Positions 10,081-13,279 of a stretch of DNA of 32,389 bases are shown piece after piece. The DNA comes from Deltaproteobacteria bacterium (lineage in GTDB: Bacteria > Desulfobacterota > Dissulfuribacteria > Dissulfuribacterales > QOAL01): positions 1 to 32,389 of the forward strand of contig JALVQQ010000206.1 in assembly GCA_027025395.1 (NCBI GenBank). The letters are read 5' to 3'. The notes under the pieces were generated by a model that worked only from the letters and a program-made list of their open reading frames with translations, did not search any database and was not told the origin of the DNA. Position 1 is the first letter of the stretch. Each line of letters opens with the position of its first letter. The position numbers were made by a program, and so were the translations under genes.

Positions 10081-10167
10081 GCCGAGGTGGTGGAATTGGT
10101 AGACACGCTATCTTGAGGGGGTAGTGGGCAACCGCCCGTGGGGGTTCGAATCCCCCCCTCGGCACCA
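10081..10167 (+). tRNA. leuU: tRNA-Leu (anticodon GAG)
   Basis: Class II tRNA of 87 nt. Acceptor stem GCCGAGG pairs with CCTCGGC (10157-10163), with discriminator A and an encoded CCA (10165-10167). The anticodon stem CTATC/GGTAG closes a 7-nt loop with GAG at 10115-10117. A long variable arm, GGGC-AACC-GCCC (10126-10137), is diagnostic of Leu/Ser types, and the T arm has the standard TTCGAAT loop. It reads CUC/CUU codons. The arrangement secG then tRNA-Leu(GAG) is the same as secG-leuU in E. coli. Confidence 0.97.
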
Positions 10168-10179
10168 GTCGGAAATAAT

Positions 10180-10211
10180 GCCCGTAATCTTCGTAGGTTA
10201 CGGGCTTTTTT
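10180..10211 (+). terminator. Rho-independent terminator after tRNA-Leu
   Basis: A perfect 8-bp stem, GCCCGTAA (10180-10187) with TTACGGGC (10198-10205), a 10-nt loop, and six T residues directly after (10206-10211). It lies 12 bp beyond the tRNA CCA end and should close the transcript carrying the glycolytic genes, secG and the tRNA. Confidence 0.92.
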
Positions 10212-10231: not shown

Positions 10232-10257
10232 AAGAGTTCCTCATAGTGTGAACTCTT
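10232..10257. repeat. 8-bp inverted repeat upstream of the Cys-rich/HAD gene pair
   Basis: AAGAGTTC (10232-10239) and its exact complement GAACTCTT (10250-10257), separated by 10 nt. It begins 20 bp after the previous terminator and 56 bp before the GTG start at 10288, so it lies where a promoter or 5' leader is expected. No T tract follows, so it is not a terminator. An operator or leader hairpin is possible; the role is unknown. Confidence 0.5.
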
Positions 10258-10287
10258 TACTCTTCGAAAGGTCAGGAGGGTTTTGGG

Positions 10288-10614
10288 GTGAGACAGTATT
10301 CCATAGATGAACTTGGTCCGGCCAAGGTAAGGGAAGTCAGGGAGTATCTGGATTCCCATTGTGAAAAGTCTGGTCTTGAGAATATATATTGGTTGCGCAT
10401 CCCTGACGACATGCTCTCTCCCGACCAGTATTCCCACAAGCAATGTCAGCCCCATTGTGCTGGCATTGAGGTAGGAGAAAGACAAGTGGTGTTTGAAATG
10501 CTGGTCAGGAGCCGTAACAGCCTGAAGTGCAGTTGCATATCCTATGCGACTGCCCAGCAGAGACAGTTTATCCTTGCGTTTGCTGACAGGATGTGCCAGG
10601 AGTTGGGATTATGA
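10288..10614 (+). CDS. Uncharacterised Cys-rich protein (108 residues)
   Basis: I do not recognise a named family. The start is GTG, chosen because AGGAGGG lies 8-9 bases before it and no ATG fits. The protein has six cysteines: C25, C53, C57 (in 'HKQCQPHC'), C81 and C83 ('CSC'), and C103. The H-x-x-C-x-x-x-C and C-x-C pattern would suit a zinc or Fe-S site, but that is inference. No signal peptide or membrane segment is seen. The gene overlaps the following HAD-like gene through an ATGA junction, so the two are translated together and probably act together. Confidence 0.72.
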   Translation: MRQYSIDELGPAKVREVREYLDSHCEKSGLENIYWLRIPDDMLSPDQYSHKQCQPHCAGIEVGERQVVFEMLVRSRNSLKCSCISYATAQQRQFILAFADRMCQELGL

Positions 10615-11714
10615 TTCAGGTTAATCTGGACTGCGAGGGACCGCTCACACAGAATGACAATGCGTATGAACTGTGTGAAAAGTTTATTCCTCGGGGCGGA
10701 ATTTTTTTTGCCAATGTCAGCAGGTACGATGATTATCTGGCGGATGTCGTCAGGAGACCTGGCTACAAGGCCGGGGATACCCTGAAGCTTGTACTTCCAT
10801 TCCTTAAGGCAAGCGGTGTTACATCAGCGGCAATGAGGGAGTTTTCCGCTGCCACTCTAAGGCTGCTTCCCGGCACAAGGCAGATGCTTCCCCGGATGGC
10901 GGCCCGGTTTCCGGTCTTTATCATAAGCACCAGTTACCGCCCCTACCTAGATGCACTTTGTGATGTTACGGGGTTCCCGCCGGATAATATCTACTGCACC
11001 GAGTGTGATATTGATGCGTACACCATTCCAGATTCGGAAAGAAAGCTGCTAATGGAACTGGCTGGTGAAATTGCCGCACAGCCCATGATGTCCTGGCCCC
11101 ATGATGCCGCGGGAGTCGAAGACCTTGACCGTGAGACAGCCTGCGTCCTTGAACGCCTTGAAGAGATATTCTGGCGTATTATTCCAGGCATGAAGGCTGG
11201 CAGGATGCTTGACGAGATAAATCCGGTAGGCGGAACGGAAAAGGCAGTGGCAGTGAGTGAAAGCCTTGAGCGTACCGGCCTTCGGCCTTCGGATGTCTTT
11301 TATGCGGGAGATAGCATAACAGATGTGCAGGCCCTTGAACTTGTAAGGGAGGGAGGGGGAGCCGCGCTCTCATTCAATGGCAACTCCTATGCGGTCCGTT
11401 CGGCCTCCTGGGCCTGTCTTTCTCCTGCAACGGCGGTTATCGGGGCGTTGGCGGAGGCAATGGGGAATTCAGGCGTTGCATCACTTGCAACAATGAGTTT
11501 TGACAGCAGCGGCATGGCGGATGCGGATGCCGTGTGTGACTTTCTGAGGAGAAACGGGGTGGAAGACGATATGTTCGAACTGCTGGCACAGGGGCGGCAT
11601 GAGGAAGAACCAAGAATTTATGATCTTGGTTTGGCGGATATCCCGGCGGTAATTACAGAAAGTGAGGCATTCAGAAAGGGTGTTCGTGGTATTTCAGTGG
11701 GAAATCTTGGTTGA
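10611..11714 (+). CDS. HAD-fold protein with atypical motif I (COG4030/EhaR-like)
   Basis: 367 residues with the four HAD-superfamily motifs: nucleophile-type Asp7 in 'NLDCEGPLTQND', motif II Ser/Thr in 'FIISTSYRPYL' (~104-112), motif III Lys211 ('GGTEKAVAV'), and motif IV 'YAGDSITD' (D234, D238). In ordinary HAD phosphatases motif I is DxD; here it is DxE, which could weaken or change phosphatase chemistry. The DxEGPL start resembles the archaeal COG4030/EhaR group as I remember it; that assignment is tentative. The ATG at 10611 overlaps the previous stop and has AGGAG 8 bases before it, so I prefer it to the in-frame GTG at 10593. Substrate unknown. Confidence 0.78.
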   Translation: MIQVNLDCEGPLTQNDNAYELCEKFIPRGGIFFANVSRYDDYLADVVRRPGYKAGDTLKLVLPFLKASGVTSAAMREFSAATLRLLPGTRQMLPRMAARFPVFIISTSYRPYLDALCDVTGFPPDNIYCTECDIDAYTIPDSERKLLMELAGEIAAQPMMSWPHDAAGVEDLDRETACVLERLEEIFWRIIPGMKAGRMLDEINPVGGTEKAVAVSESLERTGLRPSDVFYAGDSITDVQALELVREGGGAALSFNGNSYAVRSASWACLSPATAVIGALAEAMGNSGVASLATMSFDSSGMADADAVCDFLRRNGVEDDMFELLAQGRHEEEPRIYDLGLADIPAVITESEAFRKGVRGISVGNLG

Positions 11715-12892: not shown

Positions 12893-13279
12893 ATGGCAAA
12901 GGTAGCAGTCGGTGGTTCAAGAAGTTTTGATTCCTACGAGCTTGTCAGGGACGTTCTTGACATGCTTCTTGTAAGCGATGACATATTGTATTCGGGAAAT
13001 GCTCCTGGCGCTGACAGGCTCGGGGAGCGTTATGCAGAAGAAAACGAGATGGAATGGAAAATCATTCCCTCTGAATGGGAAAAGCATGGCCTGAAGGCAA
13101 CCATGATGAGAAATGAAGTGCTGTTAAGGGCCTCGGATTGCGCCATAATATTCTGGGATCGAAAGTCTGAAGGTTCAAAACATATGATAGATATAGCCCT
13201 GAGGGCAAAAAAACTACTGGCCGTGGTTTATCCCGATGGCAACCTGAAACTCCATCTGAATCCCAGAAAATTGGCATGA
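12893..13279 (+). CDS. SLOG-domain protein (DUF2493, YspA/cpYpsA-related)
   Basis: 128 residues forming a single Rossmann-like SLOG domain. Motifs are the N-terminal 'VAVGGSRSF', then 'LYSGNAPGADRLGERYAEE' with the nucleotide-binding G-x-A-x-G-A-D, and 'MMRNEVLLRASDCAIIFWDRKSEGSKHMI', where MRN and the SxGT-like 'SEGS' segment are typical. SLOG proteins bind or process nucleotides or nucleotide-derived ligands, and several act in phage or stress defence, but this one has no effector partner next to it. AAGGAG lies upstream of the ATG. It is transcribed away from feoA. The specific ligand is unknown. Confidence 0.82.
   Translation: MAKVAVGGSRSFDSYELVRDVLDMLLVSDDILYSGNAPGADRLGERYAEENEMEWKIIPSEWEKHGLKATMMRNEVLLRASDCAIIFWDRKSEGSKHMIDIALRAKKLLAVVYPDGNLKLHLNPRKLA

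Follow-up and report, generated by a model that had tools for sequence, protein, structure and literature searches.

A HAD Protein of the AF1437 Group, Its Order-Specific Small His/Cys Partner in Dissulfuribacterales, and Its Formyltransferase Companion across the Phylum

Introduction

A contig of 32,389 nucleotides (JALVQQ010000206.1, referred to here as the window) from the 2.53-Mb draft genome of a deltaproteobacterium in the order Dissulfuribacterales (phylum Desulfobacterota) carries two overlapping genes, the first encoding a small protein and the second a protein of the haloacid dehalogenase (HAD) superfamily. The pair raises the question of whether the two products act together and, if so, in what process. 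The original prediction, made by a model from the sequence of the window, saw in them an uncharacterised two-protein function that is perhaps metal dependent. Its claim that the genes overlap at an ATGA is borne out by the coordinates of the open reading frames, as the TGA stop of the small gene occupies 10612-10614 and the ATG of the HAD gene begins at 10611. The coupling of the two genes is real but specific to this order; in the wider phylum it is a formyltransferase, not the small protein, that accompanies the HAD protein.

The HAD Protein Belongs to the AF1437 Group

The HAD motifs are all found in the protein. Motif I is DCEGP (D7 and E9), motif II is STSY (S106), motif III is EKA (K211), and motif IV is GDSITD (residues 233-238); D7, E9, K211, and the whole of motifs II and IV are invariant within the order. 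Motifs II to IV are thus kept, as had been claimed. The DxE of motif I, which had been viewed as a replacement of DxD, is likewise present and invariant but is not a deviation. Since DCEGP occurs in 46 of 47 bacterial members and DWEGP in the archaeal protein AF1437, DxE is the normal state of this HAD group. The protein has the sequence features expected of a HAD superfamily phosphatase, namely, a motif I aspartate with an acid/base residue at +2 and motifs II, III, and IV, and it matches Pfam family PF12710 (E value of 5e-9).

By sequence and by fold over most of its length, the HAD protein belongs to the AF1437 group. AF1437 of Archaeoglobus fulgidus (1Y8A) is the sole relative found by sequence in the PDB (E value of 1.4e-33; profile E value of 7e-47) and is also the top Foldseek match (E value of 4.9e-16; TM score of 0.72 by target) of its AlphaFold model, which has a predicted local distance difference test score (pLDDT) of 78. 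The suspected likeness to an archaeal group therefore holds by sequence, profile, and fold. The two proteins are of the same family and have a common DxEGP motif I and GDSxxD, although AF1437 is an archaeal protein, which we take to be a member of COG4030. The next-best fold matches are SerB/phosphoserine phosphatases and ThrH (HAD-IB), with TM scores of 0.3-0.4 by query. The motif I of ThrH, DLEG, also contains glutamate. In comparison with ThrH and SerB, the HAD protein is longer (367 versus about 205 amino acids) and has a conserved C-terminal domain and, at its extreme C terminus, a conserved tail, SExxRKxVRGxxxGxLG (encoded at 11660-11711 of the window).

A Formyltransferase Is the Companion of the HAD Protein across the Phylum

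Among 296 genomes sampled from the phylum, 60 encode the HAD protein, 64 encode a formyltransferase, and 54 encode both (p = 8e-42). Counted by family, the HAD protein is found in 23 families, the formyltransferase in 26, and both together in 22 (p = 3e-17). The two genes are adjacent in 24 of the 54 genomes that have both. Outside the order, 17 HAD loci were read; a PfkB-type kinase gene lies beside the HAD gene in 10 of these and a formyltransferase gene in 10, and a PfkB kinase-formyltransferase-HAD operon is frequent. Within the order, three of the loci that were read show the formyltransferase gene next to a PfkB gene, and the window's own genome holds its formyltransferase gene on another contig (G000:C148:4340-5158). 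The HAD and formyltransferase genes are all but limited to genomes that also encode CdhC, a subunit of acetyl-CoA synthase, which is present in 56 of the 60 HAD-positive and 61 of the 64 formyltransferase-positive genomes.

The formyltransferase matches PF00551 (Formyl_trans_N), and N126, H128, and D166 of the site are invariant. It shares this domain and these residues with PurN, the glycinamide ribonucleotide formyltransferase, but it scores far under the PurN cut-off (55.7 versus 150 bits), and its N-terminal substrate loop reads W-F-S-T-G-R-D.

Other genes recur near the HAD gene. Genes for a rhomboid protease and then an SDH-type Clp-fold serine protease follow it in 6 and 5, respectively, of the 17 loci outside the order, and both stand behind it in several families (loci L123, L132, L135, L140, and L141). 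A gene for a CobD-like aminotransferase lies by the HAD or formyltransferase gene in some genomes; beside the HAD gene it is on the opposite strand, and its presence was judged to be incidental.

The Small Protein Has a Candidate His1Cys3 Site

The small protein is encoded in 111 of the 296 sampled genomes. Across the phylum, H50, C53, P55, E70, L72, R74, C81, and C83 are invariant in all 59 distinct sequences. The protein had been described as a six-cysteine protein with an HxxCxxxC plus CxC pattern, and this description holds only in part, as conservation extends to just three of these cysteines. C25 and C57 each occur in 44% of the sequences, and C103 is rare, the position being mostly leucine (C25 and C103 are given in profile numbering). 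HxxC and CxC stand, and because C57 is present in only 44% of the sequences, HxxCxxxC reduces to HxxC, the spacing of which becomes HxxxC in two members. The invariant H50, C53, C81, and C83 would make up one candidate four-ligand His1Cys3 metal site, so that the idea of a metal site in the small protein survives as a probable one.

No relative of the small protein was found in Pfam, NCBIfam, PHROGs, or the PDB, and a Pfam search with all 23 members gave only scattered matches, all above an E value of 0.05. No viral or plasmid relatives of the small protein or the HAD protein were found. Judged by its sequences, the small protein represents an undescribed and widespread family marked by an invariant His1Cys3 signature.

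Elsewhere, the small gene keeps other company. Outside the order, a gene for RNase J, often together with one for FtsK, neighbours it in 8 of 30 loci that lack the HAD gene (both were named by reading the sequences and not by model search). In a likely Desulfovibrio-like family, its neighbour is the gene for glutamyl-tRNA reductase (HemA); at one such locus (L113:3983-6457), it lies right behind a cytochrome-assembly-like gene and the reductase gene.

Coupling of the Small and HAD Genes Is Confined to the Order

The pair was searched for in 60 related genomes. The small protein is encoded in 42, the HAD protein in 41, and both in 38, and in 33 of these 38 the two genes are adjacent on the same strand, usually with 15-66 bp between the stop of the small gene and the motif I codon of the HAD gene. 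The genes that flank the pair differ between genera. The coupling has therefore outlasted changes in its surroundings. The two genes lie at separate sites in four genomes of the order. In two members of one genus (G035, at L084:2184-4042, and G039), a gap of about 430-500 bp with no obvious conserved gene inside separates the two genes, and in a third member (G041) the HAD protein was found and the small protein was not.

In the 282 sampled genomes outside the order, the two proteins are not associated: the small protein is present in 18 of 47 HAD-positive and 80 of 235 HAD-negative genomes (p = 0.62), and the genes are adjacent in none of the 18 genomes with both. The coupling is thus real within the order, but a general two-protein function is not supported.

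Two alternative accounts of the pair follow from these counts. The genes may share transcription only, joint expression being convenient in this order while the products are functionally unlinked. The independence of the two proteins outside the order agrees with such an account, as do the other stable neighbours of the small gene (RNase J-FtsK and HemA); that the pair has stayed together within the order while its flanking genes changed many times argues against it, and we consider it rather unlikely. Alternatively, the two proteins may be obligate partners, either as the two subunits of one enzyme or in a metal-dependent complex. The ATGA overlap and the adjacency in relatives despite changing flanks are what such a complex would lead one to expect, but 29 of the 47 HAD-positive genomes outside the order lack the small protein, 80 have the small protein only, genomes with both show no adjacency there, and even within the order the genes can lie at separate sites. 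An obligate complex is therefore improbable. Most likely, the small protein is a metal-binding accessory or merely a co-expressed neighbour in this order.

A Link to Hydrogenase Is Weak

The HAD protein had been tentatively compared to proteins linked to hydrogenase loci. EhaR, from the tail of the eha operon of methanogens, is presumably a HAD protein of the AF1437/COG4030 group, an assignment we treat as provisional. Formyltransferase and PfkB (ribokinase-type) genes are linked to the HAD gene in other families of the phylum and not at the locus in the window, and EhaS and EhaT, from the same operon tail, were originally annotated as these two enzyme types, a formyltransferase and a ribokinase (PMC3087415). 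With EhaR as a HAD protein, the EhaR-EhaS-EhaT tail would parallel the bacterial HAD-formyltransferase-PfkB operon, and the likeness is suggestive. It differs in that the bacterial genes have no hydrogenase subunit genes nearby and that the bacterial formyltransferase is PurN-like and not Ftr-like. No paper on AF1437 was found in the literature searched, which on AF1437, COG4030, and EhaR offered nothing of use beyond PMC3087415 and PMC2674652.

The parallel with the eha tail might suggest that the HAD protein serves an anaerobic [NiFe]-hydrogenase function by supplying a cofactor or CO ligand, but the genomes speak against it. HypD is lacking in 7 of the 60 HAD-positive genomes, one of which (G026) is 99% complete, and HypD and the HAD protein are only weakly associated (p = 4e-4); the locus in the window is not in an eha hydrogenase operon, and no hydrogenase subunit gene was identified among the neighbours beside the pair. 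A role in hydrogenase cofactor supply was rejected on the clear exceptions to HypD co-occurrence, and a hydrogenase function of this kind is very unlikely.

The Locus and Its Upstream Palindrome

The features of the locus are listed in Table 1. The pair lies between gap-pgk-tpi-secG-tRNA-Leu on one side and FeoA/SLOG/MCP genes on the other. As a strong terminator follows tRNA-Leu, the pair probably forms a transcription unit of its own. The same terminator is present in two relatives from the same genus (L003 and L004).

TABLE 1 Features at and upstream of the gene pair in the window
Feature	Coordinates	Strand	Remarks
tRNA-Leu (GAG)	10081..10167	+	Called by ARAGORN; upstream neighbour of the pair
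Intrinsic terminator of tRNA-Leu	10180..10205	+	11-pair stem and T run
Perfect 8-bp inverted repeat	10232..10257	none	10-bp spacer; proposed operator; not conserved
Small protein gene	10288..10614	+	108 amino acids; GTG start; undescribed family; candidate His1Cys3 site
HAD phosphatase gene	10611..11714	+	367 amino acids; AF1437 group

The inverted repeat upstream of the pair, AAGAGTTC-10-GAACTCTT, is present as described, with its arms at 10232-10239 and 10250-10257, 31-56 bp ahead of the first start. Across the window, perfect 8-bp repeats with spacers of 3-15 bp occur 19 times, compared with 4-9 times in shuffled sequence, and the other perfect repeat near the pair is the tRNA-Leu terminator. 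The perfect arms of the upstream repeat, its position, and its status as the sole match in the window would fit an operator through which a repressor controls the pair, but such repeats arise by chance in shuffled windows, and this one is missing from L003 and L004, where the tRNA terminator alone precedes the pair, and from all other relatives examined, so that a conserved operator was rejected and an operator role is highly improbable.

The SLOG-type protein (PF10686) is encoded at 12893-13279. In G023 (L151:4887-5288) and G024 (L152:6034-6444), the gene for a SLOG homologue immediately precedes that for the formyltransferase, and in G024 it is accompanied by FeoA, just as it is in the window. 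This hints, as a second sign, that the HAD-pair and formyltransferase loci are related.

Proposed Role of the HAD Protein and Its Partners

The explanation that we favour, with moderate confidence, regards the HAD protein as catalytically competent, a phosphoserine phosphatase-like enzyme that acts on small molecules within a kinase/formyltransferase pathway linked to one-carbon metabolism, and as coupled in this order to a metal-binding accessory protein. The motifs, the family, the fold match, the coupling within the order, and the association with the formyltransferase were observed, and from them we infer catalysis, the binding of metal by the small protein, the shared pathway, and the accessory role. 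From its motifs, Asp7 would be the nucleophile that attacks phosphate and Glu9 the general acid/base in place of the usual second aspartate, with Lys211 as the predicted motif III lysine and Mg2+ presumably held by Asp7 and Asp234/Asp238. The protein would work with the PurN-like, 10-formyltetrahydrofolate-type formyltransferase and the PfkB-type kinase in a pathway that is hardly found outside anaerobes that have acetyl-CoA synthase. The combination of kinase, formyltransferase, and HAD protein suggests that a sugar- or nucleoside-like compound may be phosphorylated, formylated, and dephosphorylated. In the order, the HAD gene stands apart from the kinase and formyltransferase genes and is translationally coupled to the small gene, the product of which, a putative Zn or Fe His1Cys3 protein, is probably an accessory that responds to metal or redox state or a co-expressed partner. 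Elsewhere, the small protein appears to be dispensable for the HAD protein.

Several points weigh against this explanation. Six HAD-positive genomes (G051, G076, G208, G246, G284, and G320) lack the formyltransferase, and ten genomes have the formyltransferase without the HAD protein. The co-occurrence tests at the genome level treat kin genomes as independent, although the family-level test agrees with them. The link to CdhC may stem from shared ancestry. Finally, the model of the small protein (pLDDT of 46) is too poor for a fold search.

A bolder proposal, which we put forward as speculative and probably too strong, is that the HAD protein, the PurN-like formyltransferase, and the PfkB kinase constitute one conserved route of acetyl-CoA-pathway anaerobes to a formylated phospho-metabolite. 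These genes would then do the same job as EhaR-S-T in methanogens, a different formyltransferase having been recruited to match folate instead of methanopterin as the one-carbon carrier, and the His1Cys3 protein would be a lineage-specific regulator or helper.

The small-protein family is undescribed, while the HAD family and its fold were known already, though uncharacterised. A structure from the HAD group has been solved since 2005, and no function for the group was found in the literature searched. The near-perfect co-occurrence of the HAD protein with the formyltransferase, together with the near-restriction of both to genomes with acetyl-CoA synthase, now gives this group a concrete pathway to test.
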